Below are positions 7,950 through 55,594 of a stretch of DNA of 64,000 bases, piece after piece; the stretch's first letter is position 1; the number at the start of each line of letters is the position of its first letter. The DNA is from a virus, in the IMG/VR virus record IMGVR_UViG_3300027749_002876, positions 248,001 through 312,000 of that record; one strand, written 5' to 3'. A program made the translations under genes and the position numbers. Below the pieces are notes generated by a model. The model was not told the DNA's origin, made no database searches, and saw only the letters and a program-made list of their open reading frames with translations.

Positions 7950-7953
7950 AATG

Positions 7954-7961
7954 TATTTATC
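7954..7961 (-). promoter_or_regulatory. late-promoter-like GATAAATA abutting a start codon
   Basis: The motif ends 4 bases before the ATG at 7949. A transcript starting at the usual distance would begin within the start codon, so this may be either a coincidence or part of the leaderless-start pattern seen at several genes here. Confidence 0.35.
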
Positions 7962-9518: not shown

Positions 9519-9524
9519 AGTGAG

Positions 9525-9532
9525 TATTTATA
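9525..9532 (-). promoter_or_regulatory. late promoter TATAAATA of terL
   Basis: Perfect T4 late consensus directly after the terminator at 9538-9561, with the terL ATG 6 bases downstream. The placement predicts an almost leaderless terL mRNA. Confidence 0.65.
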
Positions 9533-30317: not shown

Positions 30318-30335
30318 AATATATCTCCTTTAATG

Positions 30336-30343
30336 TATTTATC
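30336..30343 (-). promoter_or_regulatory. late-promoter-like GATAAATA
   Basis: It lies 18 bases upstream of the copy 5 ATG, with the ribosome site AAAGGAG between. The same GATAAATACATTAAAGG block precedes copy 6 at 40491. Confidence 0.55.
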
Positions 30344-40471: not shown

Positions 40472-40490
40472 ACTATATTATCCTTTAATG

Positions 40491-40498
40491 TATTTATC
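40491..40498 (-). promoter_or_regulatory. late-promoter-like GATAAATA
   Basis: It lies 19 bases before the 40471 ATG, immediately after the tmRNA terminator's T-run. Confidence 0.5.
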
Positions 40499-40502
40499 AA
40501 AA

Positions 40503-40528
40503 AGAATAGGCTCCGAAGAGCCTATTCT
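40503..40528 (-). terminator. strong terminator ending the tmRNA transcript
   Basis: 11-bp perfect stem AGAATAGGCTC / GAGCCTATTCT with a C(UUCG)G tetraloop on the minus strand, followed by TTTTT. It is among the strongest terminators in the window and follows the coding piece of the tmRNA. Confidence 0.95.
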
Positions 40529-40539
40529 GCTATTTTCTG

Positions 40540-40709
40540 TTACGAGGGATAACTCCCCTAGCTGCCTTTATCAGGCCGCAATGCTAAACTGTGAGTCGTT
40601 TGCGGTTACTTTTTTTGCTTCTACGACCGGGTTGCCCCAATCCTACGGCTTCTGCTTTGCCGAGCTGTCCACTCTGTTACTTGTTGCCCTGTCGAAACTT
40701 TTCAGGCCC
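40540..40709 (-). ncRNA. ssrA: tmRNA coding piece
   Basis: Starts GGGCCTG with the conserved TTTCGACAGGG of the tRNA-like domain, then a hairpin with GCAA loop (40625-40642) just upstream of the tag (PK1 position), the tag frame, helix 5 with stop codons in its loop (40561-40579), and a GGG/CCC hairpin near 40544-40558. The 3' boundary is estimated. Confidence 0.85.
40571..40603 (-). other. tmRNA tag reading frame, ANDSQFSIAA
   Basis: Resume codon GCA (40601-40603), then AAC GAC TCA CAG TTT AGC ATT GCG GCC, then TGA (40571-40573) and TAA (40568-40570). With the charged Ala, the added tag is AANDSQFSIAA. It keeps the AND start and hydrophobic-AA end of typical tags used by ClpXP, but the middle differs from the common betaproteobacterial tag ANDERFALAA. 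Confidence 0.9.
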
Positions 40710-40710
40710 A

Positions 40711-40791
40711 TCATAAAAAGAATATTAAAAAAACCAAAATAATAACACTCAATATTCCACATGTATATTGATATTTTACTTCAGGATCCAT
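40711..40791 (-). CDS. 26-residue membrane microprotein inside the tmRNA intervening segment
   Basis: The ORF starts at ATG 40791 with an excellent ribosome site AAGGAG five bases upstream, overlapping the base after the encoded CCA, and stops 2 bases before the coding piece. The peptide starts MDPEVKYQYTCG and continues as a single hydrophobic segment of Ile/Leu/Val/Phe, ending FFL. It would be translated only from the unprocessed precursor. A real microprotein or chance cannot be separated by eye, but the fit between the two tmRNA pieces is striking. Confidence 0.5.
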   Translation of the reverse strand: MDPEVKYQYTCGILSVIILVFLIFFL

Positions 40792-40803
40792 ATTGTCTCC
40801 TTA

Positions 40804-40870
40804 TGGTGGACCTGGGGAGATTCGCACTCCCGTCCAGAACACCTTTCCCGTTACTTCATACAGCAATAAC
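40804..40870 (-). ncRNA. ssrA: tmRNA acceptor piece
   Basis: The 3' end GGTCCACCA and a T-arm GGGAG-TGCGAAT-CTCCC are present, with an upstream GGAC like the one before the T-arm of E. coli tmRNA. The T-loop has G where U55 is usual. The CCA is encoded (40804-40806). The 5' limit is estimated; it begins after the stop of the 1447-residue gene. Confidence 0.85.
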
Positions 40871-40871
40871 T

Positions 40872-43800
40872 TCAATTGTATTTAGCATTGAAATACTTTT
40901 TTAACCAAGGCCAATCATAACTTAGACGCAATTTGCCTAACTCACCATTGACTTGTTCAACATATTCTACAGCATGTTTTGCACCATCGATACTATATTG
41001 GGCATAGTCACCCTCACCCACAGTTGACCATATCTTTAATCGTTGTTTGCTATCAGGACTATCATCTAGTTTTAACTTGATAACTTCACGGAAACTGGTA
41101 CGCCATGTACTAAATTCATCAGTGTTATATCGTGCTACACCCGAATTAATCTCTACAACTTCATGCTCATTGTCTAATGTAAAGTCCAAACCTTTACCCA
41201 TATTACTTAACGTAATCTGTTTATGGTATGCAATCATAGCTTGGTGACCATACACTAATCCATTTACAGGGTTACTTGCGTAGAAGATATAATGTTTAGG
41301 TATCTGTAATCTATCTGGTTGCCATGTAAAATCAAATTTACTATTGATACGTAACTTAGCAAACACTGTAAACATCCAAGGTGTTTCACTAGCTGTTGCG
41401 GCTGCATGATAAGCCTGAACACGACCATTTACACCATCAACACGAACAACACGATTAGGCAATCCTTTAGTCACGTTTAGTAAGTGTTCATAGTTCTCAT
41501 CAGCTCCAACTTCACCGTTGCTAAGGAAAACTATATCCAGTGGCTTAGACTGTATTAGTTTATCAGCTTTACTGATGTATGGATAATCATACAACTCTTT
41601 CTTAACATATTCTTTAGCTTCTTTCGGCACAATAATACGTGTGCCACCGGTAGTAGTAATTAATATGTTTTTAGATTCTTTAGACCATAAACTTATTGGT
41701 TCATTGTCAACAACTTTTATTTCTTTGTTGTCTTCCGTGACAAACGTAGCATAAGGCCAATTAAAATCAGTATTAGTAATAGAGACATGTGTATCGCTTT
41801 CAGTTATAAAGTTTGGAGCAGGTAAACGCTTTACTCTTTGATGTTGGTTAAAGTTAATTTTCTCAATTTTTTCTAAATTATCTAATTCTTCTATCAGCAT
41901 ACGTAATTTATTGACATTGATAAAGAATGTATCACCAAACTTTTGCAAGTTACTAGGGAATACATGCAATTGTTCCAGTGAAAACGGATCACATATGTAT
42001 GTAAAATCAAAATTAGTATAGTCACATATAGAACTACATACCCAAACATAATGTTCTTTTTTAATACCTAACTCATACAACATATTTTTTAATGTAGTTA
42101 GGTAATCATTATCATATTTAATAACTTCAACATTCTTTTTAGTTTTATTTTCTAATAATGATGTAATATTATCAGTAGTATCATTACCGTAATCAATCAA
42201 ATAAACGTCATACAAGCAGTTACTAGCGACCGCTCGCTTTGTTTTTACAAAGTTAAGATTACTTAAATGTTCTATAATTTTAATATGTTTAGTATCTTCT
42301 ATGAATGTTTCTTTATTGACCATAAAGGTAGTTCCCCAATGGCTCCATTGTGTTCCAAATATATGAACCATTTTCATTTGCCATGGGCTAGGATAATAGT
42401 CAAATGTAAAATTTGTATAATCTAATTCACTATTCAGTATCCAACATACTTCAGTTTCAGACTTGTTAAGACAACGATTAATAGTATCAACCCAGCTATT
42501 TAAATAACGTGTTTTTTGTATTTTTGGATAGCGTTGTTTTAATTCTTCGAATCTTTGTTGGCTTTCATTGTTGTTCTTATCAACAAAAAACATTGATAGG
42601 TTACTGTCGATTTCCACTGTTTGTTCTTCAACATAGTTAAATTCTCTATGACCCATAGTGTATAATGGTCCGTTAACATAATAAGTTTGTGTGTTCTTAC
42701 TATATTCGTTACCAAATACATTTATGTGCCTAAAGTTTTCACTATTTGGTCTCCAGTTAAAATCAAATTTATCATAATTTAAGTCAGGGTTGATGACCCA
42801 AAATACTTCATCCGGATGTTCTGCAATCAAATCCTCAAGTGTTGTTTTAAGTTTATAACGATTAACTGTATTACGGTTTGTAGTAATTGTAGTTTCTGTT
42901 CGTTCCATCAACACAACTTCAGTTGCGCCTGGCACAGTGTATCTAGGACCATTATCTGCCCACTGGTAAATTTGAGGAGGACTATGTGGATTAGGTCTCC
43001 AACTAAAATCAAATGTATTGTAATCGTCTACATTACTCACATGCCAATTTTTTAATTCTGGTTTAGTAATAGCAACAATGCTTTTAACATATTTTCGTTC
43101 TGATGCCCCATAAGTCCAATATTCTACTGTAGGTTCTACTGTAGCGTCATTCCATTTGTTACCAAAAACATATACATATGGTGGACTTTTGGGATCAGGT
43201 CTCCATGAATAATCAAAATTGTCAACAGGTATTACTACTAGCCACTTGTTCATATCAGGTAATGTAGTTGCTACTACATCATCCATATATTTAAATTCAG
43301 TAGCACCTGGACAAGTGTAAGTGATAGTAGGTTCACGTACAGCATCGTTATATTTGTTACCCCATACATAGATATACGCAGGTTCACGCGGATCAGGTCT
43401 CCAGCTAAAATCAAATGAAGATTTATCAACTGGTATAAGAGTTTCCCATCTATTAAGCTGTGGCTTTACATCAACTATACCTACATATTTGCGTTCTGTT
43501 GCACCTGGTACATGATATTCTAATGTAGGTTCTACTTCTGCCGGAACATATTTGTTTCCCCATGTATATATGTAGGGTTTTTCAGTCTCATCGGGATGCC
43601 AACTAAGTTGGTCTTCTACTACAGCCTGATGTATAACCCAATTATCCTTTGTAGGCAGTGCTTTTGCTCTGGTTGCGTCAATATATTTTACAGCACTGTT
43701 CTCATTTACACCGTCTGCATAATATACAGGGCCGCCCGTCTTTTGCCATTGTGTTCCAAATTTATATATGTATGGTATATCTTCGATATCAGGATGCCAA

Positions 43801-45215
43801 CTAAAATCAAACTCGGATGTGTCAATACTATCCGGTGTGAACCAACTTGCCATGATATTATGTTCGGGCATTATCCAATTTTTCATATTAGGTAATGCTT
43901 TTGCTTTGACCTCATCAACATATTTTACATGACTATATTCATTTGCACCTTCAGAATAATAAATAGGTCCGCCTATCTTTTGCCATTGTGTTCCAAACTG
44001 ATACTTATATGGTCTATCTTCAATGCCGGGGTGCCAACTAAAATCAAATTCAGATACATCCACACCATCAGGGATAGACCAATTAGTCATGTTTGATAAT
44101 GCTTTAGCTACAGGGTAATCAATATATTTTACATCTGTTGCATTGTTGACAACATAGCGAGGACCACCTGCTTTACTCCATTGGTCGGGGAATTGATATA
44201 TAAAATCAGGTTCATTTGGTTTTGGTTCCCAACTATAATCAAAAGTAGATGCATCAATATATGAAGGTACTATCCAATTATCTTTAAACTGTTTACGTGT
44301 TAATCGGTATTCATCTATATATTTGTATTGTGTTGCACCTTCAACAGTGTATGTTGCAGAAATCTTATCTTCTGCTTTAGTCCATTGATTACCCCATGCA
44401 TAGATAAATGCGGGTTCACGTGGATCTGGTCTCCAACTAAAGTCAAATTCATTTTTGTCTATATCATCAGCAATGACCCAACGATCCCATTTGGGTTCTA
44501 GTGCTACTTCATCTGTCATATATTTTATAATAGAAGAACCTTCAGTATGATATTCCAATACACTTTTAACTTCTACTGGGAAGAATTTGCAACCCCAATG
44601 ATAAATGAATGCAGGTTCACGTGGATCTGGTCTCCAACTAAAGTCAAATTTGTTCTTGTCTATATCATCAGTAATAACCCAACGATCCCATTTGGGTTCT
44701 AGTGCTACTTCATCTGTCATATATTTTATATTGATAGCACCGGGCACACGATATTCTATTACATTTTTAACTTCTACTGGGAAGAATTTGCAACCCCAAT
44801 GATAAATGAATGGCGGATCAGTTGGATCAGGATGCCATGAAAAATCAAATTTAGTTTCATCAATTAAATCATGTAAGATCCATCTATCATTTTTTTCGTT
44901 GTGTCTAAGTACTGGTTGTACATCAGCACGATAAATTGTTAATGGTAATTTATTATCAGCATTACACAACCATGTGCCGCTGTCTTTCTGATGTTGACTT
45001 GGCCAAATATTATCATGTTCATATGCCCATACATCTTCATCCGGCAAGAATTCAAAATCAAAATCCCAATCAAAATTTCGATAATCACAGTACTCGTTGA
45101 TTATCCAAAAATGTTCTGTTGTGGCTTGTTTTCTGGCCTCGGCTAGATTACGTGCTTGTTTTTCTCTGGGGTGGGCGTTTGGTTTATTACCAAAATAAAA
45201 TACATCTCTTAGCAT
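40872..45215 (-). CDS. 1447-residue repeat protein with glycosyltransferase-like C-terminus
   Basis: About 15 tandem repeats of roughly 70-90 residues carry a core such as FDFSWRPDPREPAFIYHWG, each preceded by a W-V/I-x-x motif and followed by a beta-type segment with an EYxxxGAT-x-x-KY signature. The last repeat is part of a C-terminal module (KPLDIVFLSNGEVGADENYE, TPWMFTVFAKLRINSKFDF) that resembles the whole 57248-58201 protein, itself DxD-containing and glycosyltransferase-like. No ribosome site precedes the ATG. It heads the modification island but is transcribed opposite to the first radical SAM genes. Function unknown; I infer a multi-domain glycan-modifying or binding protein. Confidence 0.7.
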   Translation of the reverse strand: MLRDVFYFGNKPNAHPREKQARNLAEARKQATTEHFWIINEYCDYRNFDWDFDFEFLPDEDVWAYEHDNIWPSQHQKDSGTWLCNADNKLPLTIYRADVQPVLRHNEKNDRWILHDLIDETKFDFSWHPDPTDPPFIYHWGCKFFPVEVKNVIEYRVPGAINIKYMTDEVALEPKWDRWVITDDIDKNKFDFSWRPDPREPAFIYHWGCKFFPVEVKSVLEYHTEGSSIIKYMTDEVALEPKWDRWVIADDIDKNEFDFSWRPDPREPAFIYAWGNQWTKAEDKISATYTVEGATQYKYIDEYRLTRKQFKDNWIVPSYIDASTFDYSWEPKPNEPDFIYQFPDQWSKAGGPRYVVNNATDVKYIDYPVAKALSNMTNWSIPDGVDVSEFDFSWHPGIEDRPYKYQFGTQWQKIGGPIYYSEGANEYSHVKYVDEVKAKALPNMKNWIMPEHNIMASWFTPDSIDTSEFDFSWHPDIEDIPYIYKFGTQWQKTGGPVYYADGVNENSAVKYIDATRAKALPTKDNWVIHQAVVEDQLSWHPDETEKPYIYTWGNKYVPAEVEPTLEYHVPGATERKYVGIVDVKPQLNRWETLIPVDKSSFDFSWRPDPREPAYIYVWGNKYNDAVREPTITYTCPGATEFKYMDDVVATTLPDMNKWLVVIPVDNFDYSWRPDPKSPPYVYVFGNKWNDATVEPTVEYWTYGASERKYVKSIVAITKPELKNWHVSNVDDYNTFDFSWRPNPHSPPQIYQWADNGPRYTVPGATEVVLMERTETTITTNRNTVNRYKLKTTLEDLIAEHPDEVFWVINPDLNYDKFDFNWRPNSENFRHINVFGNEYSKNTQTYYVNGPLYTMGHREFNYVEEQTVEIDSNLSMFFVDKNNNESQQRFEELKQRYPKIQKTRYLNSWVDTINRCLNKSETEVCWILNSELDYTNFTFDYYPSPWQMKMVHIFGTQWSHWGTTFMVNKETFIEDTKHIKIIEHLSNLNFVKTKRAVASNCLYDVYLIDYGNDTTDNITSLLENKTKKNVEVIKYDNDYLTTLKNMLYELGIKKEHYVWVCSSICDYTNFDFTYICDPFSLEQLHVFPSNLQKFGDTFFINVNKLRMLIEELDNLEKIEKINFNQHQRVKRLPAPNFITESDTHVSITNTDFNWPYATFVTEDNKEIKVVDNEPISLWSKESKNILITTTGGTRIIVPKEAKEYVKKELYDYPYISKADKLIQSKPLDIVFLSNGEVGADENYEHLLNVTKGLPNRVVRVDGVNGRVQAYHAAATASETPWMFTVFAKLRINSKFDFTWQPDRLQIPKHYIFYASNPVNGLVYGHQAMIAYHKQITLSNMGKGLDFTLDNEHEVVEINSGVARYNTDEFSTWRTSFREVIKLKLDDSPDSKQRLKIWSTVGEGDYAQYSIDGAKHAVEYVEQVNGELGKLRLSYDWPWLKKYFNAKYN
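40879..40886 (-). promoter_or_regulatory. late-promoter-like GCTAAATA upstream of tmRNA
   Basis: Same sequence as the motif before the Fn3 protein gene. The predicted start point near 40873 coincides with the stop of the 1447-residue gene and the start of the acceptor piece. Confidence 0.45.
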
Positions 45216-45295: not shown

Positions 45296-45337
45296 GTTCG
45301 TATGCCTAAAAAGCATTTATCAATAACAGGAACACGC

Positions 45338-46396
45338 ATGAGCAGAACACAATTTGAATTTACACCAGGAAAACCAATTAGAACATACGGAGCCAATGGC
45401 TCATGGAGAGATTGGAGCACCGATGAACTTGTGGGGGCAAAATTAAATTATCTATCAGGTTGGAAATGTGGTGCAGGCGTTGATAGCTTATTCATCGATA
45501 TGGATGGTGGTGTATGGACAGCTAGTTGTCGTGTAGGTGGCAAATTAGGTAGTGTTTGGGATGACTTTTCAGTTCCGGAAGATTGGATTGATTGTACTAA
45601 AAATGTATGTAGTTGCGGTGCTGACTTGTTTATCCCAAAAACTAGTCTTGTTGAATTCAAGCCATTACTACGAAAAGGACAAGAATTGCCAACTCAGGGT
45701 GAAATGTTAAATGAACAACTAACTGAGTTTGTAGGTATGGAACGAACACACGCTAGTACTCAAAAACAAATATATTGGGAAATAGGTCGTAGATGTAATT
45801 ATGATTGTAGTTATTGCTGGCCTTGGATACATAACAATACTGACCCACACAAGCCATTGGAAGATTTAATGAGAGCTACTCATTTGATTGAGAAAAAATT
45901 CACCAAAGGTGAAAGCGTTAACTTCATTATTAGTGGTGGTGAACCCACTGTTAATAAAGATTTCTTAGATTGGTTACGTTATTTAAATGCATGCGGACAT
46001 CATGTGAGCTTGCATAGTAATGGTAGTCGATTGCCTGACTATTACAAAGAAGTTATACATTACGGTGATTTGAACTTGAGTGTTCATTATGAGTTCTATA
46101 ACAGAGAAAAGTTTGTTAAAGTGGTTGAGGCTATTGCAAAAGAAAAATCAGAACACGGTGGTTGTGGTCACTTAGAAGTTAAGTTTATGATGGCTCCGCA
46201 CAACCGTGATGAGACATTGAGCTTAGAAGCTGAATTAAAAGAATTACCTCACTTTGTAGATTACTGCACCTGGGCTATTGTTCCTATACGAGGAGACATG
46301 AATAACAAAATCAGTTCACCTGATACCGGTTCAGGCAGTGAAGTTATGGAAGGCTACACTAAGGAAGATTACATTTTATTCGGAGATCGTAAATAA
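45338..46396 (+). CDS. radical SAM enzyme with N-terminal Cys-rich (SPASM-like) domain
   Basis: 352 residues from ATG 45338, chosen for the ribosome site AGGAACACGC and the upstream promoter. The N-terminal 100 residues carry WKCGAGVDSLFIDMDGGVW, SCRVGGKLG and CTKNVCSCG, a Cys-rich region resembling the C-terminal part of the 56304-57254 protein. The radical SAM cluster CxxxCxxC is CNYDCSYC at about residues 153-160, then SGGEPT. The domain order is reversed relative to the homologue. It forms a [4Fe-4S]-SAM radical; substrate unknown. First gene of the plus-strand operon. Confidence 0.85.
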   Translation: MSRTQFEFTPGKPIRTYGANGSWRDWSTDELVGAKLNYLSGWKCGAGVDSLFIDMDGGVWTASCRVGGKLGSVWDDFSVPEDWIDCTKNVCSCGADLFIPKTSLVEFKPLLRKGQELPTQGEMLNEQLTEFVGMERTHASTQKQIYWEIGRRCNYDCSYCWPWIHNNTDPHKPLEDLMRATHLIEKKFTKGESVNFIISGGEPTVNKDFLDWLRYLNACGHHVSLHSNGSRLPDYYKEVIHYGDLNLSVHYEFYNREKFVKVVEAIAKEKSEHGGCGHLEVKFMMAPHNRDETLSLEAELKELPHFVDYCTWAIVPIRGDMNNKISSPDTGSGSEVMEGYTKEDYILFGDRK

Positions 46397-46397
46397 T

Positions 46398-48320
46398 ATG
46401 GAAAAAGACGAATGGATGGTAGAAACGTTAATACCAAGAAACACCGGTATACGCAAGAAGCCTAACATACAAGCTGTAACATATTTTAATGCTACTAGAA
46501 AAACTAAATTAGTACTAGCTGTAATGGGGTGCTGGGCTATTTGGATGCCACCATATAACTTAGGAAGACTAGCTTCATTAACTAGATCATCCGGATATGC
46601 AACAAAATGTTTTGATTTCAATGTTCAAAGTTATCACGACTTTAGAGAAATGTATCCTGGTTCTGATTTAGAGGATGCTTGGGGTACAGGTAATTGGTGG
46701 TGGTGGAAAGAACGTTATTTTGACAAAATACATGAAAGAAACATTCCACTACTAGAAAAATATGTGGATGAAATATTAGCAGAAGATCCGGATATTGTAG
46801 GATTAAGTTTATACTTTACTAACAGATTGCCGTCAGAGTGGGTAGCTAATGAAATTAAAAGACGTAGACCAAGTGTACTAATTATATTTGGTGGACCTGA
46901 ATGCCATTCAGAAGATTACGTTCCGCCCGAATCGGTCGACCACTGGTTTACGGGAGAATCTGAACAATTACTATTAGATTTTTTAGAGAAATACGAAACG
47001 GGTGAGAAGATTACTGAACGTCATTTGGGCAGTTTATATAGTTCTACTAGAATTGATATTGATAGTTTACCCTTCCCCGACTATTCTGATTTTGACTTTT
47101 CTAAGTATTTAGGACATTTATCAATTAATACTGAAATCAGCAGAGGGTGTATTGCTAAATGTAGCTTTTGTTCCGAAACATATTATTGGAAATATAGAGA
47201 TAGAGAAGCACATTCAATATTAGATGAGATAGAGCACCAAGTAAAAACCAACGAAATTGTTGCTGTTTCATTTGTTGATAGTTTAGTCAATGGCAATCTA
47301 AAAAGTCTCAAAGGTTTTGCTGAAGGATTAATTGATCGTAAATTAAACATTAGATGGTGGGGATATGCCAGATGTGATGGACGTATGGATGGTGCTTACT
47401 TTGATTTGCTTCGTGCTAGCGGTTGTGACGGATTCAGTTACGGAGTAGAAAGCGGTAGCCAAAAAGTATTAGACTTAATGCAGAAAAAAGTTAAAGTATC
47501 TGATATTAATGAAAATCTATATCATTCAGGTAGAGTGGGAATGACAGCTAATGCTAATTGGATTATCGGTGCGCCCGGAGAAGATATTGAGGCATTAGCG
47601 CATAGTATGAACCTTATTTGGAATCATAGAAATAATATACATTCAATTAGTCCAGGCAATGGTTTAGGTGACACGTTGGGTACTGACTATGATAATAGAG
47701 AAAAATACAACATAAACCCTCGTAACAAACCTTTCTTAGGACATTGGTACTCATTAGACTGGACTAATACTCAATTAAACAGATACATTAGAATGAAACT
47801 ATTTGTTATTCTTTTAAAGATAGCAAAAGATCATGGAGTGATTGTTAATCTTAATGGTGACAAAGGTATAACCTCACATTACGATTTAAAATTTGATGAT
47901 GACAATTATATTGTTGATAATATTGAATATGAGAATTTTGAATACCATCTATTAAAAACTGGTTACGGTTTTTTTGCTGACACCGTTGTGAATGAAGTAT
48001 TTTCTTTGTTCAGAATATTGTGGAGAATTAAAGGTGGTTTTGAAATTACGCTAAACTTTGAGCAAGAGGTTGATGTTGAGGCATTTGGTGGATTATTAAC
48101 TCATACACCACATACTTATAATGCAACACATTATTTCAAAATAGATAAAGAGGGTAATTTTCAATCTAATAATACATATGAGTTTTTTTATGAACCAGAA
48201 TCTTGGGATAGAATTGAGAATAAGAGTTTTAAATATGAAGGTAATGTTTCAGGTTATTGGGGTGAAGTAAAGATTGCTCCTGTGAAACGTCACATATGGA
48301 TAGAGAACAATATAAATTAA
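46398..48320 (+). CDS. B12-binding-domain radical SAM protein
   Basis: 640 residues from the ATG at 46398; an upstream in-frame ATG at 46338 would overlap the previous gene and gives an unlikely N-terminus. Residues about 40-210 form a cobalamin-binding Rossmann domain with DIVGLSLYFTNRL and VLIIFGGPECH. The radical SAM cluster CIAKCSFC is at about 251-258, followed by SYGVESGSQKVLDLM, typical of this class. Such enzymes methylate or rearrange inert carbons, often in natural product or RiPP maturation. It follows the first radical SAM gene without space. Confidence 0.88.
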   Translation: MEKDEWMVETLIPRNTGIRKKPNIQAVTYFNATRKTKLVLAVMGCWAIWMPPYNLGRLASLTRSSGYATKCFDFNVQSYHDFREMYPGSDLEDAWGTGNWWWWKERYFDKIHERNIPLLEKYVDEILAEDPDIVGLSLYFTNRLPSEWVANEIKRRRPSVLIIFGGPECHSEDYVPPESVDHWFTGESEQLLLDFLEKYETGEKITERHLGSLYSSTRIDIDSLPFPDYSDFDFSKYLGHLSINTEISRGCIAKCSFCSETYYWKYRDREAHSILDEIEHQVKTNEIVAVSFVDSLVNGNLKSLKGFAEGLIDRKLNIRWWGYARCDGRMDGAYFDLLRASGCDGFSYGVESGSQKVLDLMQKKVKVSDINENLYHSGRVGMTANANWIIGAPGEDIEALAHSMNLIWNHRNNIHSISPGNGLGDTLGTDYDNREKYNINPRNKPFLGHWYSLDWTNTQLNRYIRMKLFVILLKIAKDHGVIVNLNGDKGITSHYDLKFDDDNYIVDNIEYENFEYHLLKTGYGFFADTVVNEVFSLFRILWRIKGGFEITLNFEQEVDVEAFGGLLTHTPHTYNATHYFKIDKEGNFQSNNTYEFFYEPESWDRIENKSFKYEGNVSGYWGEVKIAPVKRHIWIENNIN

Positions 48321-48330
48321 GGTATATTAA

Positions 48331-49716
48331 ATGAATAACACTAAAACGTTTTGCAACATGGCATGGGATTATCCTATGTTCTTTATGTTTAAAAATGCAG
48401 TAGGTTACTGCTGTAGAACACCTAGAATAGATATTGATAATGAATTACTAGAGGAGATGAAAGAGGACTTTTGGTCTAATCATCCTAGCTTTGTCAATAG
48501 AAGAAAAGAATTAATCAATGGTATAAAAAGTAAAGATTGTGATACCTGTTGGCAATTAGAAGATGCTGGATTTAAAAGCTCTAGGAATGATGACCACTTC
48601 AATATGTTTATGAAGAAAAATTATCCCAATTTTAATGAAAAATTAGACCAGCGTTTATTTAAATTCTTTCCAGGCATTGAACGTAGTAACTATTCAAATG
48701 TAATTGAAATTGTATTGAATAACACATGTGATGCAAAATGTACATATTGTAGTGAACATTATAGTACTCAATGGGTAACTGAAAAAAAGAAGTTTGGTGG
48801 AATAAGTCCGTATTATACTGACATGAATGACAGAAATCCTAGAGCAGAAGAACTGTTCTGGTCATGGTATGAAAACAAAGTATTACATACTAATAAACGT
48901 TTTGGATTCATTGGTGGTGAACCGTTAATTATTGATGCATTATATGAATGTTTTGATAAATTAATTGAAATACATGAAAGAAAACAACTATCAATTCAGT
49001 CTGATGCGGATAAAATGGAACTATGTATTACTAGTAATATGAATACACCTCCTGCATATTTTGAAAAGTTTATGGGGTATGTGAAAAAACTAGAAAAACA
49101 TTTCAGAATTATCATTCAAGTAAGCGGTGAAAACGTAGGTGACGATTTAGAATATATACGACACGGTGTTAAATGGAAACGTTGGTCTAGAAATGTTGAA
49201 TATTTATTAGACAATACTAACATTACGCTAAACTTTTTACCATGCTTAAGCTTGTTAACTATTCCTAGATTTAACGAATACATACAATATGTAAACAAGT
49301 TAAACAAAAAATACGGAGTAATGAAAATACATCAAAACATTGTTACATGGCCAGTAGAACAAAGTCCTATGATAGCTCCTAAAGAATTTTCCCAGTACTT
49401 TGATCCATGCATTGACAGTGTGAATGAAATTCTTGCCGGAGAAATTAAGGATCGATTTATACGAGGTGAATATGAAAACCTATTATTGTGGCTTACAAAA
49501 ACACGTGAAGCTATTATAAGCAATCCAAGTGCAAGTGAACCTGTTGAGAATGCTAAAAAGTTTTATTCTTTTTTTAATGAGTTAGATCGTAGAAGAAATA
49601 CTAGTGTATTGAAAATATTTCCTGAAATAAAAGAATTTTATGACACAGGTAAACAGTTATATGAAGGCACAGTACAACCACGCATTATACCAATTGTAGC
49701 TGTGACAAATGAATAA
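48331..49716 (+). CDS. twitch/SPASM-type radical SAM protein, 461 aa
   Basis: The N-terminal Cys-rich part (FCNMAWDYPMF near residues 7-17, then GYCCRTPR and CDTCWQLED near 69-77) is a twitch- or SPASM-like auxiliary cluster domain placed before the radical SAM core, the reverse of canonical SPASM enzymes. The core has CDAKCTYC at 133-140 and GFIGGEPLI. The next two genes are homologous in layout. The products probably modify peptides or proteins, the usual role of SPASM-type enzymes, but the target is not visible. An AAGG ribosome site is present. Confidence 0.85.
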   Translation: MNNTKTFCNMAWDYPMFFMFKNAVGYCCRTPRIDIDNELLEEMKEDFWSNHPSFVNRRKELINGIKSKDCDTCWQLEDAGFKSSRNDDHFNMFMKKNYPNFNEKLDQRLFKFFPGIERSNYSNVIEIVLNNTCDAKCTYCSEHYSTQWVTEKKKFGGISPYYTDMNDRNPRAEELFWSWYENKVLHTNKRFGFIGGEPLIIDALYECFDKLIEIHERKQLSIQSDADKMELCITSNMNTPPAYFEKFMGYVKKLEKHFRIIIQVSGENVGDDLEYIRHGVKWKRWSRNVEYLLDNTNITLNFLPCLSLLTIPRFNEYIQYVNKLNKKYGVMKIHQNIVTWPVEQSPMIAPKEFSQYFDPCIDSVNEILAGEIKDRFIRGEYENLLLWLTKTREAIISNPSASEPVENAKKFYSFFNELDRRRNTSVLKIFPEIKEFYDTGKQLYEGTVQPRIIPIVAVTNE

Positions 49717-50938
49717 CAATTTACCAAATAGTGCAACATTGTGTACACAATTATGGAATCATGCTGTTGTTGATATAGATAAGAAAAAAATCAGAGCATG
49801 TTGTAAAACTCCTTCTATACAATTAACAGATAATGATATTGCTACATACAAGCAAGATGCTTTTATTAATTTACCAGTAATACGTGAAGCAAGAAAAGAA
49901 ATGCTTGACGGTGAGAAGCCAGCTATGTGCCGCACCTGCTGGGATTTAGAAGCCAAAGGAAATTTTAGTTTTAGAACTGGGAATTTTGCTTGGCAAAACT
50001 ATTTTAAAGATTTAAATTACAGTGATTATACATTATCAAATCATCCAAATGATTTAGATATACAGTTGGATAACTATTGTGATTTAAAGTGTTTATATTG
50101 CAATGAAGAATTTAGTAGCCAATGGCAAGCAGAGAAACAAAAGTTTGGTGATATACAGTCTTTTATCCCTATACAAACAGCACATGATGACTTTGTTAAA
50201 ATTTTCTTTACATGGTTTAACACAGTAAAAGATAACTTTGAACGTATTGCTTTTTTAGGCGGGGAGCCATTAATCAGTCCTCGTTTCTATGAGTTACTTG
50301 ATATGATTCTTGAAGCGTACAATAATAAATTCCCCGATGAATTGGTGATTAATATCATAACTAATCTGAATACTACATCAAAATACTTAGAAAAATTTAT
50401 TGACACTATCAATCGTTATAAAGATAAAGTTAAGTTTAACATAAACATTTCACAAGAAGCATATGGGCAGCAAGCTGAAGCTATTAGACATGGTTTAGAT
50501 TTTAACAGATTTATGTTTAATTTTAATGAGTTAGCCAAAATTAAAGGGATTGTATTAAGCACTATAACTACTGTCAATGTATTGAGCCTAAGTACATTGT
50601 ATAAGTATTTAAAATTTGTGACTGAGATTGAAAAAGAACACAATGTTCACGTTATCATTTATCCAAACTTAGTGAGCTTTCCAGAACATTTACAAGTTTC
50701 ATTAATGGATAAACAGTTGGGTAAAGAATATATTGATTTGGCTATTGAAGCTTTATCCGAAAAAAATCACCAGGGGTACATTGACTTCTTAAATACATTA
50801 TACGATAAGTTTGTCTTTGAAGAAATCAGAGATACAGATAACCACAATTCTCTTATAAAAGAACTAGAAACTCTGTCTGTTAGACGAAACGTAAATTATA
50901 AGGAAATATTTAATGAGTACAAATACATCTGGGGATAA
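49709..50938 (+). CDS. twitch-type radical SAM protein, 409 aa
   Basis: Paralogue of the 48331 gene product. The N-terminal Cys motif is RACCKTPSIQL with CRTCWDLEA, and the radical SAM cluster is CDLKCLYC at about 124-131, followed by FLGGEPLISPRFYE. The gene overlaps the upstream stop by 8 bases. Sequence differs from its neighbours over most of its length, so the duplication is old and the three enzymes may act in sequence on one substrate. Confidence 0.85.
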   Translation: MNNNLPNSATLCTQLWNHAVVDIDKKKIRACCKTPSIQLTDNDIATYKQDAFINLPVIREARKEMLDGEKPAMCRTCWDLEAKGNFSFRTGNFAWQNYFKDLNYSDYTLSNHPNDLDIQLDNYCDLKCLYCNEEFSSQWQAEKQKFGDIQSFIPIQTAHDDFVKIFFTWFNTVKDNFERIAFLGGEPLISPRFYELLDMILEAYNNKFPDELVINIITNLNTTSKYLEKFIDTINRYKDKVKFNINISQEAYGQQAEAIRHGLDFNRFMFNFNELAKIKGIVLSTITTVNVLSLSTLYKYLKFVTEIEKEHNVHVIIYPNLVSFPEHLQVSLMDKQLGKEYIDLAIEALSEKNHQGYIDFLNTLYDKFVFEEIRDTDNHNSLIKELETLSVRRNVNYKEIFNEYKYIWG

Positions 50939-52508
50939 CTCAGTTTGGGATTCACTGACACATGAACATGCTGAGTCAGGAAAAGTGTACAACGAAACAC
51001 TCGAGGTTATAACACCACCATTACAAAACTACATGGATGAACCTACCTTCCCTGCACAAGTTGATCCAGCTAACGTATCTTGTAAATTCAAATGGGATTA
51101 TCCTATTGTTAACTTGATGAGCGGTCATAGTAGAACATGTTGCCGTGTACCAAAACAAGTTATAACTCAACAAGACCTTGATATGTATGGCATAGATGCT
51201 ATTCAAAATTTACCATACGAACAAGATAGACGTAGAGAAAAGATTTTAGGTATTACACATGTTGATTGTGAATCTTGTGTAAGATTAGAATGGAATGGTG
51301 CTATTAGCCCTCGTAGTAATATGCAAGGGTTTGTTAATGAGTGGTTAATTACCCATCATAATGCATATCCACATAAAGTAAAAAATGTACAGAAATGGCA
51401 CGTTGACCATATGCCAACAAATGCCAATGACTTACCCTTCAATCATCCATTACTAAGAGCAGATCATCCTGATATGTTAGAAATTATCTTGGGTAATCAT
51501 TGTGATTTGAAATGTACATATTGTAGTATTCATTACAGCACTCAATGGCAAACTGAATTAATTAAGTTTGGTGATATCAAAAAAGAAGATATTGACCATC
51601 ATTTTCCGGCAGCGCCTGAAAAATTAGAACCTGTATTCTGGGAATGGTTCTATGATGTTGGTCGTCATTCTAGTAAAGTTATTAACATTCTAGGTGGCGA
51701 GCCTACATATATGCCAAAGTTTTATGATGTTATGGAAAAGTTAACAGCGGCTTACAAAGACTTAGGTAAGAAAGATAGACATGTTGAATTAGGTATATTA
51801 TCTAACATGAACACTAAACAACCACAAATGGATCGTTTTTTAAATCTATTACCTGAACTTACTAAGTATCTATTTTTAAGATTACAACCTAGCATTGAAG
51901 CTGTTGGTAAGAAAGCAGAATATATTAGATATGGTTTAGATTGGAATCGATTTGAAGGTAACATCAAAAGAATATTAGGAGAACGATCTAAGTATGGATT
52001 AACTCCTGACAACTTTGGCATGGGATTTCAAATGGCTTTGAATAGCTTTAGTATTTCAAGTTTACCAGACTTTATTCATTGGTCTAATGAATTGATTAAT
52101 GAGTTTGACTTTGAAATTGGATTGATGAAAAATGTGGTTAGTTTTCCTAGACACCATAATCCACACGTACTTACTCCTGACTTTGGTACTTACCTTGAAC
52201 AAGCACGTGATTATATTGAAATATATGCCGAGCGCAATGATAGACAAATCAGAAGATTATCAGCATTGCATCATGGTGTCCCCCCTCATGGTAGTTGGGT
52301 GAGCTATAATGTAGATTTATTAAACAGTTTAGTAGATTCTGTCAGTAGTGATTATCGCAGTGAATATGATGTTGAAAGCCGTGGCCATTGGTATCATTTT
52401 GTAGAATCTATGAAGCATAGAAGAAATATTGATGTATTAGAATATTATCCTGAAATGACAGAATTTTATAATTTGTGCAAGAAACATGCACAACATGGTG
52501 ATAAATAA
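50913..52508 (+). CDS. twitch-type radical SAM protein, 531 aa
   Basis: Third member of the plus-strand set, longer because of an N-terminal extension of about 60 residues and a central insertion. Cys motifs SRTCCRVPK and CESCVRLEW precede the radical SAM CDLKCTYC at 197-204, then INILGGEPTYMP. The start overlaps the upstream gene by 26 bases. The extension suggests a different partner or substrate recognition from the other two. Confidence 0.85.
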   Translation: MSTNTSGDNSVWDSLTHEHAESGKVYNETLEVITPPLQNYMDEPTFPAQVDPANVSCKFKWDYPIVNLMSGHSRTCCRVPKQVITQQDLDMYGIDAIQNLPYEQDRRREKILGITHVDCESCVRLEWNGAISPRSNMQGFVNEWLITHHNAYPHKVKNVQKWHVDHMPTNANDLPFNHPLLRADHPDMLEIILGNHCDLKCTYCSIHYSTQWQTELIKFGDIKKEDIDHHFPAAPEKLEPVFWEWFYDVGRHSSKVINILGGEPTYMPKFYDVMEKLTAAYKDLGKKDRHVELGILSNMNTKQPQMDRFLNLLPELTKYLFLRLQPSIEAVGKKAEYIRYGLDWNRFEGNIKRILGERSKYGLTPDNFGMGFQMALNSFSISSLPDFIHWSNELINEFDFEIGLMKNVVSFPRHHNPHVLTPDFGTYLEQARDYIEIYAERNDRQIRRLSALHHGVPPHGSWVSYNVDLLNSLVDSVSSDYRSEYDVESRGHWYHFVESMKHRRNIDVLEYYPEMTEFYNLCKKHAQHGDK

Positions 52509-52512
52509 AAAA

Positions 52513-53187
52513 ATGAATATTACATTTACGTTAGATCCAAACAATAGATCGATATACTATATCAATTTAGAAGTAAGCCCTGAAATACTCGAAGAACTCA
52601 AGCAGGAAAATTGGGTACCTATTACTCCTACTCATTTAGATGAATATTATACAAAACGTCATCGTCTAGATGATGGATACGGAATAAAAGGTTTATTAGT
52701 ACGTAAAGTATACACTTTTATGAGGTCTTCTGAATTTAAAAAAACTATGTTAGACTTGATATGGAAAGATATGACATTTCAACATAAATGGGGTCCTCGT
52801 CTTAACTATGAAAAAATTAACAATTGTACCATTGTTGAATTTGGTTTTGATAAAGATTGTCCTGGATTTAGTACAGACCTTCATTTAGAAAATCGTTGTC
52901 AAATTGCATTTGGTAAGATTTTTTTTGTACCTGAGGATGCGGAAAATAAAAGCTCATATTTTTATAGAACAATAAATCGTGATGATCCTTTAAGAGTCCC
53001 TGTAGGTATGGGACTAGGTTGGCTATGTGTCAATACACATGAAGGTTGGCATGAAGGTTATAACGCTAGTGAGGAAGATAGATATTCATCTAGTATAAAT
53101 TTTACATTTGATATATTTAACAACGGCCATGTAAAAAGCGATGACGCCACTATTAAATATATACGTGGCGAAGCTGCTTCTATTTAA
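52513..53187 (+). CDS. putative 2OG-Fe(II) oxygenase-like protein
   Basis: 224 residues from the ATG at 52513, which directly follows the upstream stop; an earlier ATG at 52486 lies within the upstream gene. A beta-rich core contains FSTDLHLENRCQIAFG (possible H-x-D/E-type metal site) and later CVNTHEGWHEG plus DRYSSSINFTF, spaced like the second His and the Arg that bind 2-oxoglutarate. It would hydroxylate or oxidise a substrate, fitting the radical SAM island. The metal triad was judged by eye, so confidence is moderate. The stop codon overlaps the opposing operon's stop. Confidence 0.55.
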   Translation: MNITFTLDPNNRSIYYINLEVSPEILEELKQENWVPITPTHLDEYYTKRHRLDDGYGIKGLLVRKVYTFMRSSEFKKTMLDLIWKDMTFQHKWGPRLNYEKINNCTIVEFGFDKDCPGFSTDLHLENRCQIAFGKIFFVPEDAENKSSYFYRTINRDDPLRVPVGMGLGWLCVNTHEGWHEGYNASEEDRYSSSINFTFDIFNNGHVKSDDATIKYIRGEAASI

Positions 53188-54371
53188 TAATTTATTAATT
53201 TCCATAATTCAGGCAAATAGTCTTTCATATCTGTTTGTCTATAGTCATCGTGTAATTTTAAAAAGTTAATTAACTTAATTCTATATTCTTCTGCATTAGA
53301 ATATTCATATCCATCATCATTTGGTAGATTAATGAAATTAATGATAAATTCTTTGTGACCGGTGTCAGGAGATTTTAAATTATACTTACTAAAATCTATC
53401 TTATCTATTTTTTCTACTAATTTATTTTTTAATCTTGATGGTAAGTTTTTAAGACATAACATTTGTGGATCATGTATTAGATTTGCAAACATAATAAAAC
53501 AACCATACTTACTTAATTCATCTAATATTTCTTCTAAGTTTAAAATATTTAAAATACTAGCAGTTGGATAAATACCAACAAAGAAAGGGTGTGGTAATAC
53601 AGCATATTTTTTGATGTTATCATCTATTTTATTCCATTTTGCTGGCCAACGTTGATATTCAAATCTAGTACCAATATCATCTATACTCAAAAACAAATTT
53701 ATTCTTTTAAATTGTTTAAGTAATTCTATTAGTTCATCAGTATATACTGTACCATTTGTATTCAGTGTTAAACTAATATTTTTAGCTAAATTTTTATCTA
53801 CTAAAAATTTAATGTAATCCAATACTTCATCATTGATTAATGGTTCACCGCCGTATATTAATAGATATTCAAGATTGACTGACATATCATGCAATGCTTG
53901 TAATCGTTCACCTTCAAATTTATCTAATGATACCGTTTCATAGTAATCAGCTGGTATCAACGGTATATTTAATTTATTAAATTGTGTTTGCCATAAACTA
54001 CTTAGATAAGGACTACATATGCGACAAGCCAAATTACATTTATTAGATAGTTTTAAACTAAGGTAATTTACAACAGGCTTATCAATTCTATACCTGTTGT
54101 TATATTGATTTTGTTGACGTAAACTAAAAACTCCGGCTTCTTCTTCAGTCCAACATCTTATACATTCTTCTGGTTTCTCCCCTGCTAAGAATTTCTTTCG
54201 TAATGTATTAACATCTTCACTATTCCAAATAGTATCTAATCTATCTTCAAGTATATTATACATCCCGATCTGATCGGGTTTTTTAATTACTTTACGTATT
54301 TTACAGCATACTTGACATGAGCCTTCTGGACTTATTTCCAAACTGTTAAAGGGCATTGAACAAAAACTCAT
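53184..54371 (-). CDS. twitch-type radical SAM protein, 395 aa
   Basis: The N-terminal Cys-rich domain (MSFCSMPFNSLEISPEGSCQ, VCCKI, CIRCWTEEEAG) is followed by the radical SAM cluster CNLACRIC at residues 112-119 and LIYGGEPLINDEVLDYI. It is homologous in domain order to the plus-strand enzymes although encoded on the other strand, in the converging operon from 60398. Its ATG overlaps the stop of the next gene (54368) by 4 bases. Confidence 0.87.
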   Translation of the reverse strand: MSFCSMPFNSLEISPEGSCQVCCKIRKVIKKPDQIGMYNILEDRLDTIWNSEDVNTLRKKFLAGEKPEECIRCWTEEEAGVFSLRQQNQYNNRYRIDKPVVNYLSLKLSNKCNLACRICSPYLSSLWQTQFNKLNIPLIPADYYETVSLDKFEGERLQALHDMSVNLEYLLIYGGEPLINDEVLDYIKFLVDKNLAKNISLTLNTNGTVYTDELIELLKQFKRINLFLSIDDIGTRFEYQRWPAKWNKIDDNIKKYAVLPHPFFVGIYPTASILNILNLEEILDELSKYGCFIMFANLIHDPQMLCLKNLPSRLKNKLVEKIDKIDFSKYNLKSPDTGHKEFIINFINLPNDDGYEYSNAEEYRIKLINFLKLHDDYRQTDMKDYLPELWKLINY

Positions 54372-55594
54372 TCTAATAAACCTTTCAGTTCAGGGAACAA
54401 TTCAATTGTATTTTCTTTTCTAATACCATCTAATAATTTAGTTTCTATTTTTAAATTATCAATTTCAGTTTGTGTATCGTCTGAATACATATACTTTATA
54501 ACCTTATGTATTTCATTTATAGTAACATCAGTAAGAGTATATGATTCACATTTTTTAGCATATTCTAGCCAATGCTGTTCTACTAATTCTTTTTTATCTT
54601 TAGGTAAAGATGTAAGATTGTACATTACTGGGTCTGTTAGTATGTTATAATAGATGTTATCAATATGAATTATACCTTCATCAGCTAAAAACAAATGCAT
54701 TTTAGGTAAATGAAACGCATTCAATATGCTAATGGTAGGACATAATTGTAAATAGATATCTGGACAATTTTGTTTAATTGTTCTTAGATTAGATAAGATA
54801 TTATCCCATGTACTGCCATTGCGTATGATGCTGGCTTGTTCCCAACCAGCATCTAAACTTAGTGATAGTCGGACTTTCTTAAATAAATTCCAATAATCAG
54901 TTACCACATTTTTATCTTTAAATGTTAGGCGTGTACAATTTGTATTGTAACGCAATACCAAATCAAATTTCTTATGCTCAACTAGAATATCTAATATTTC
55001 GTAATGTTCTGCCAATAGTAATGGCTCTCCACCACAAAAATATATTTCTTCAATACTATCTAAATTGTTTTTGAAAAACTCAAAAAAATCATTCTTTTCA
55101 TCAAACGCTTTTTGCAATACAGGAACTTTTCTTTTCAAACTAGATACTGTTTCTTCTGCTATGCTACTACTATTGATATGGTCACATGTTCTGCATTTTA
55201 AATTACAGAGATTACTAAATCTTACGTCCCATGTGGCTATTTTATTTCCAACAAGATTGTTATTTTCATCAAATTCTAGTTTTTTAAATGCATCACCATA
55301 ATTTCTGTTACTAAACCATCTATAACTATGAGCACCATATGTTTGTTCAGGCAATGAACAACGATTACAGGACTCTGGTAATTTAGGTCCATTAATCATT
55401 TGTTGTTGCATTTCTGTTAGTTTGACATTAGAATTAGAATATATGTCAGACATTTTTTGAGTTTTTGTATCACCTAATATATAATTTTGATTGATACAAC
55501 ATGGGATGGCTCTTCCGTCTGTCCAAACACAAGCATGAATAAAAGGAAGAACACAAAAATGGTTAGAATTAAGTAAATGTTCTTTATCAATCAT
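54368..55594 (-). CDS. twitch-type radical SAM protein, 408 aa
   Basis: Cys-rich N-terminus HFCVLPFIHACVWTDGRAIP, CCINQNY and CNRCSLPEQTYG, then the radical SAM cluster CNLKCRTC at 130-137 and FCGGEPLLLAEHYEIL. The central region is Asn/Lys-rich. It is coupled by a 4-base overlap to the sulfotransferase gene upstream. It differs from the 53184 protein in most positions outside the motifs. Confidence 0.87.
   Translation of the reverse strand: MIDKEHLLNSNHFCVLPFIHACVWTDGRAIPCCINQNYILGDTKTQKMSDIYSNSNVKLTEMQQQMINGPKLPESCNRCSLPEQTYGAHSYRWFSNRNYGDAFKKLEFDENNNLVGNKIATWDVRFSNLCNLKCRTCDHINSSSIAEETVSSLKRKVPVLQKAFDEKNDFFEFFKNNLDSIEEIYFCGGEPLLLAEHYEILDILVEHKKFDLVLRYNTNCTRLTFKDKNVVTDYWNLFKKVRLSLSLDAGWEQASIIRNGSTWDNILSNLRTIKQNCPDIYLQLCPTISILNAFHLPKMHLFLADEGIIHIDNIYYNILTDPVMYNLTSLPKDKKELVEQHWLEYAKKCESYTLTDVTINEIHKVIKYMYSDDTQTEIDNLKIETKLLDGIRKENTIELFPELKGLLE

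Follow-up and report, generated by a model that had tools for sequence, protein, structure and literature searches.

A phage permuted tmRNA gene whose spacer probably holds a nested micro-gene

That some phages encode a tmRNA is established; what the RNA does for them is not. The locus described here raises a narrower question, namely whether the spacer (IVS) of a permuted phage tmRNA gene can itself be a gene. The locus lies on the minus strand of a 64,000-nt stretch of DNA (the window), which is part of a 524,565-bp IMG/VR virus record holding one permuted tmRNA. Other genes of the window include those for a UvsX-like recombinase and a terminase large subunit. A preliminary description of the DNA had recognized the tmRNA but had not noticed a micro-ORF in its IVS. 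Here, we consider it likely that this is a late phage permuted tmRNA gene whose one precursor doubles as the mRNA of a nested micro-gene.

The permuted tmRNA gene and its genome setting

The preliminary description had proposed a phage-encoded, permuted two-piece tmRNA, and this was borne out by covariance matches, ARAGORN, and sequence anatomy. In the covariance-model search that it had suggested, minus-strand positions 40905-40503 matched RF04321 at 98.9 bits (gathering threshold, 47) and RF01850 at 95.4 bits (gathering threshold, 84) using cmscan. The ARAGORN run, likewise suggested there, independently called a permuted tmRNA at 40480-40896 with the tag ANDSQFSIAA and tandem stop codons. 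The gene has the permuted order, in which the acceptor 3' end comes first and is followed by the IVS and then by the acceptor 5' strand with the coding piece (Table 1). On reading the sequence, GGGCCTG pairs with CAGGTCC in a 7-bp acceptor stem that includes G3-U70. These elements, together with the T-arm, the CAGGTCC-A-CCA end, the AND...IAA tag frame, and the UUCG terminator, had all been named beforehand and are present on the minus strand. The tag frame ends in a hydrophobic-AA degron followed by two stops. The 364-nt precursor folded 4.1 standard deviations better than dinucleotide shuffles (z, -4.1), none of 100 shuffles being as good. The same tmRNA gene, with the same tag, is also present on a near-identical viral contig (L002/L236). 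The tmRNA anatomy is established by computation. By analogy with known permuted tmRNAs, the IVS would be missing from the mature molecule. The suggestion, made from the tag, that the phage redirects tagged proteins found no support; the AND...AA layout is as in bacteria, including IAA endings.

Table 1. Features of the permuted tmRNA locus (positions in the window)
Feature	Position	Strand	Basis or remark
Upstream gene, 1447 aa, function not assigned	40872..45215	-	Followed by a permuted tmRNA in many related phages (synteny)
T4-like late-promoter motif CTAAATAC, shortly ahead of the tmRNA gene	40878..40885	-	Motif TAAATA(C/T)
5' piece of precursor, 3' half of tRNA-like domain	40804..40866	-	ARAGORN, RF04321/RF01850; 5' end approximate
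T-arm GGGAG-TGCGAAT-CTCCC	40831-40815	-	Sequence reading
Acceptor strand CAGGTCC, A, CCA	40814-40808, 40807, 40806-40804	-	Sequence reading
IVS, 94 nt	40710..40803	-	Bounded by encoded CCA and first G of acceptor stem
IVS closing stem, 5' arm UAAGGAGA	40796..40803	-	Fold; contains the Shine-Dalgarno
Shine-Dalgarno AAGGAG of micro-ORF	40797..40802	-	AAGG(A/G) kept in viral relatives
IVS micro-ORF MDPEVKYQYTCGILSVIILVFLIFFL, 26 codons + TGA	40711..40791	-	TGA at 40713-40711, one nt ahead of coding piece
IVS closing stem, 3' arm UCUUUUUA	40714..40721	-	Fold, covariation
Acceptor 5' strand GGGCCTG, start of coding piece	40703..40709	-	Expected RNase P site before G1
Conserved tRNA-like-domain motif TTTCGACAGGG	40687..40697	-	Includes TTTCGAC, 40697-40691
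Tag frame ANDSQFSIAA (40603-40574), then TGA TAA	40568..40603	-	ARAGORN
Terminator hairpin GAATAGGCTC-TTCG-GAGCCTATTC (40527-40504) and T run	40499..40527	-	Sequence reading, fold

The T4-like late-promoter motif TAAATA(C/T) is found 5-46 nt upstream of many genes of the window, with several copies directly after a terminator. By count alone, TAAATAC is not enriched in the window, and it is informative through its position next to gene starts. With 0.018 expected per gene, the motif precedes 15 of 19 kin tmRNAs and, among other viral permuted tmRNAs, 39 of 84. Because it precedes both this tmRNA and those of relatives, the gene would be expressed late and as a unit of its own. Further late-promoter-like motifs occur on the minus strand at 40490-40497, 30335-30342, 9524-9531, 7953-7960, and elsewhere, several of them right after terminator hairpins. 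No SmpB was detected in the 524,565-bp record with Pfam PF01668, an absence for which a divergent SmpB or an incomplete record could account.

The 1447-aa gene upstream of the tmRNA has 51 relatives in IMG/VR, and in about half of them a permuted tmRNA follows at a short distance; the tags differ, and some are of the alpha type. The downstream tmRNA is beta-like in some relatives and alpha-like in others, as if it had been replaced. The tag ANDELYSLAA at loci L011, L025, L027, and L052 stands versus VAANDNNVDLALAA at L004, L007, and L010. At 45302-55594, a run of several different radical SAM domain proteins is encoded on both strands, adjoining the tmRNA region.

The micro-ORF of the IVS and its closing stem

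The 94-nt IVS starts with UAAGGAGACAAUAUG, in which a Shine-Dalgarno directly 3' of the CCA is followed by a start codon. This is the layout of the proposed nested micro-gene, with Shine-Dalgarno and start codon no more than about 15 nt from the CCA and an ORF that fills the IVS. The encoded peptide contains a single strongly hydrophobic segment and is predicted to be a one-helix, single-pass membrane peptide. When ten IVS peptides were compared with Pfam, none had a match over the gathering cutoff. The window peptide had no PHROGs match at an E value below 0.05, and the best PHROGs match among the ten (E, 0.005) was to a 43-aa family without an assigned function.

The same layout with other peptides was seen repeatedly in the IVSs of viral permuted tmRNAs. 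By three tests, the IVS ORFs are coding. Among 46 non-redundant, tmRNA-verified IVSs with a Shine-Dalgarno and ATG, the frame was open to the IVS end in 44, whereas 9.1 were expected from dinucleotide shuffles (P about 2e-31). Pairwise pN/pS in frame 0 was 0.23-0.42 in the five best-sampled families, versus mostly 0.7-4.5 in the other frames. Tree-based changes on codon positions 1/2/3 numbered 200/112/302 over all families (P about 7e-20). The 3' arm of the closing stem was left out of both the pN/pS and the codon-position counts. For the family of the window, the corresponding counts were 11/7/20, a modest signal (P of 0.03) from 9-10 distinct sequences. Purifying selection acts at the protein level across families and is strong in several and modest in the window family.

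The two ends of the IVS pair in a closing stem that, in the fold, adjoins the acceptor stem. In 50 non-redundant IVSs, pairing over ten positions reached 93.6%, compared with 78.3% when the arms were swapped (maximum, 82.2%; 0 of 1,000 as good). Exchanges among GC, AU, UA, UG, and CG were observed at several positions, and the stem covaries. The ribosome-binding site is thus conserved along with the stem, and the folded precursor should not be translated.

Distribution and content of IVS ORFs

More than 100 permuted tmRNAs were found in IMG/VR, where hundreds of viral contigs carry such genes. Two anatomy-based scans of this collection returned 102 loci and at least 120 loci, and ARAGORN confirmed 169 extracted segments as tmRNA, with 96 distinct peptides. 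An ORF of this kind was present in 135 of the 139 distinct viral IVSs having a Shine-Dalgarno and ATG. The peptides, of 19-56 residues, fall into about 27 families, a count that is approximate given that single linkage joins several short hydrophobic families; 11 families are membrane-like and one is Cys-rich and Zn-ribbon-like. In an anatomy-neutral sample (the T-arm set), 13 of 79 distinct viral IVSs carried an ORF and the majority did not. Because most phage IVSs have none, the ORF is dispensable for tmRNA function.

The same IVS family is paired with many different tags, and relatives with the same 1447-aa gene differ in IVS content. The slot is constant and its content exchanged. In many families the ORF terminates within one nt of the coding piece. 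A stop codon within the IVS is lacking in nine of the 27 families (52 distinct sequences); most of the nine run in frame as far as the final GAU codon ahead of the RNase P site. The MFENWHW family is an example of one without a stop.

Several loci have peculiarities of their own. The IVS of L109 (6265-6783) is 215 nt long and apparently holds two successive membrane-peptide ORFs. At L015, L024, L033, L144, and L288, a family of the form ~PxN(L/Y)(F/Y)YTEREW..GWG is found, in some cases with no clear start codon or Shine-Dalgarno. About one-third of the verified tmRNAs with an IVS ORF, belonging to few families, have very long tags of 19-32 residues (for example, at L189, L190, L230, L270, L121, and L223; ANADTFDFSAMSFTGNTVSGKSKVALAA and AKTSTGEVTVSAKNIKFRTLAAKGQSLAV are such tags); the commonest tag length is 10. 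Candidate tRNA genes in the IVSs of L004 and L159 were rejected, as ARAGORN gave tRNA-like folds only with the IVS alone and their arms were poor. In L159, spacer and acceptor ends seem to have been duplicated in tandem.

IMG/VR was also scanned for peptide motifs. The motif YTALCPxCF, without any tmRNA constraint, occurred at 36 loci, of which 35 were in tmRNA IVSs and one was unrelated. The motif of the window peptide occurred at five loci, all in tmRNA IVSs. The two families tested are confined to the tmRNA IVS.

The anatomy pattern (gap, 55-85) was also run over the genomes of 84,980 bacterial and archaeal species, where it had 10 matches, none of them a tmRNA. A bacterial IVS with an ORF would not have escaped this pattern, since several bacterial IVSs share the flanks WAAG and UGAUGGGG. 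Bacterial permuted IVSs were short hairpins of a few tens of nucleotides with no ORF in a small sample, about seven permuted tmRNAs of one order obtained by running RF04321 over 200 genomes; most RF04321 matches in this order were one-piece tmRNAs with weak scores. Among 50,697 phage records, neither DNA similarity to the window tmRNA nor a member of two IVS peptide families was found. The IVS ORF was absent from all seven cultured-phage permuted tmRNAs inspected. Permuted tmRNAs not annotated as such, none with an IVS ORF, were seen in Xanthomonas phages X1 and Rb1, Stenotrophomonas phage vB_Sm_QDWS359, and the Ruegeria/Roseobacter/Rhodobacter phages V10, DSS3P8, and RcXuper (loci L396, L397, L398, L430, L431, and L432). 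In vB_Sm_QDWS359, the start of the permuted tmRNA overlaps a hypothetical CDS.

Possible roles and relation to known systems

For a nested micro-gene, one late transcript would give two products, the tmRNA and a peptide. Two cuts in the precursor, one at the end of the CCA and one at the RNase P site, would yield the tRNA-like 5' piece and the coding piece. The mature tmRNA would be charged with alanine, as its G3-U70 pair suggests, and would presumably work with SmpB of the host because none was found in the phage record. Stalled ribosomes would then be rescued by addition of ANDSQFSIAA while virions are being produced. As an mRNA, the spacer would offer, right behind the CCA, a ribosome-binding site, followed by the 26-codon ORF of the membrane peptide. 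The ribosome-binding site is paired into the closing stem, so the peptide would probably be made on the nascent precursor before this stem forms, or once the stem has been opened. Translation, its timing, and any function of the peptide are proposed here from the sequences.

Any coupling of the micro-gene to ribosome rescue is speculative. One rather doubtful extension would make the excised spacer a dedicated micro-protein slot whose synthesis is mechanically tied to rescue, with one RNA acting both as the mRNA, non-stop or stop-edge, and as the tmRNA that keeps it in check. If this were true, the amount of peptide made late in infection would report or set how much rescue the infected cell is capable of.

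The alternative that survives best, although we regard it as unlikely, is a regulatory leader in which translation of the IVS ORF matters and its peptide does not. A ribosome would part the closing and acceptor stems and so tune tmRNA maturation by translation status. This would suit the placement of the Shine-Dalgarno in a covarying stem next to the acceptor stem, as well as ORF ends so close to the coding piece in many families. However, a leader would need no 27 different conserved peptides, and those observed are conserved (pN/pS as above) yet very diverse between families, including the Cys-rich one.

Slightly less probable still is a feedback like that of ArfA, a non-stop mRNA repressed by trans-translation (PMC10107115). 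Here, processing would remove or crowd the stop, ribosomes would stall at the 3' end of the excised IVS, and the phage's own tmRNA would tag the peptide, which would accumulate only when rescue is overwhelmed. In about one-third of families, which lack an IVS stop and mostly end in frame on the last GAU, the excised piece would be a non-stop mRNA, and such feedback is suggested for those families. It is not directly applicable to the window copy, because a UGA stands one nt before the cut; most families likewise carry a stop within the IVS.

We give very little credence to the tmRNA being a remnant without function, or a decoy that would block trans-translation in the host instead of performing it. 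In favor of this are the lack of an SmpB match in the phage record and the tag-less tmRNA of phage DS6A, which according to PMC11915505 inhibits the endogenous tmRNA. Here, by contrast, the tag frame with tandem stops and the acceptor stem with G3-U70 are intact, the covariance matches are significant, and synteny extends to intact copies in many relatives. Least probable of all, and one that the codon statistics have all but refuted, is an ordinary permuted tmRNA with a chance frame in a non-coding, AT-rich spacer: most phage IVSs do lack an ORF, and the AAG..CTT stem and UGAU/GGG flank, which supply part of the Shine-Dalgarno and the stop, also occur in bacterial permuted tmRNAs, but 44 of 46 frames open against 9.1, the codon-position bias, and peptide families found only in IVSs speak against it.

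The nested micro-gene is therefore retained as the likely reading. A spacer that is seemingly kept minimal in bacteria would serve as a site for conserved micro-genes in many phages, and the IVS-confined peptide families point to a dual-function precursor RNA. The micro-genes offer targets for asking what phages gain from their tmRNAs. They also mark a blind spot, as gene callers and tmRNA finders both miss IVS ORFs.

The RNA itself is of an already known kind, whereas the nested micro-gene is undescribed in the literature searched. The preliminary description held that no permuted tmRNA had been described in a T4-like phage, which is incorrect: two-piece tmRNAs were published in 2022 for the T4-like phage Melnitz and the Pelagibacter phage Mosig, and two-piece forms make up 53 of 133 unique phage tmRNA structures (PMC9004378). 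No description of an IVS ORF was found in the searchable full-text literature, a scope that covers neither subscription papers nor preprints. A 2025 survey comprises 97,179 tmRNA sequences, 79 of them from phages, and its excerpts mention no IVS ORF (PMC11915505).

With the betaproteobacterial type (RF04321/RF01850), the window tmRNA shares gene order, acceptor stem with G3-U70, T-arm, TTTCGAC, tag frame, and terminator; it differs in its 94-nt, ORF-bearing IVS, the sampled bacterial IVSs being short and ORF-less. The tmRNAs of Melnitz and Mosig are likewise permuted, T4-like, and equipped with a tag frame, but the Mosig IVS is short and has no ORF. The Melnitz gene was grouped with alphaproteobacterial/SAR11 tmRNAs in PMC9004378, which describes a riboswitch and no nested gene. 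Huge phages also have a rescue RNA of their own; according to excerpts of PMC7162821, they carry tmRNA and SmpB, whereas no SmpB was detected in this record, and neither a permuted form nor an IVS ORF is described in those passages. The logic of ArfA could be shared only by stop-less IVS families; by its description it is set apart as a separate host gene that becomes non-stop by other means, while the window copy has a stop codon. The closest parallels in placement, mentioned in excerpts of PMC11915505, are homing endonucleases in tmRNA group I introns, a tRNA-Ala in one permuted IVS, and a repeat in another; the endonucleases and the tRNA-Ala are likewise extra genes in a part removed from the mature tmRNA. 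Unlike the cases in those excerpts, the IVS ORFs described here bring many peptide families to one position, with one Shine-Dalgarno geometry and a masking stem.
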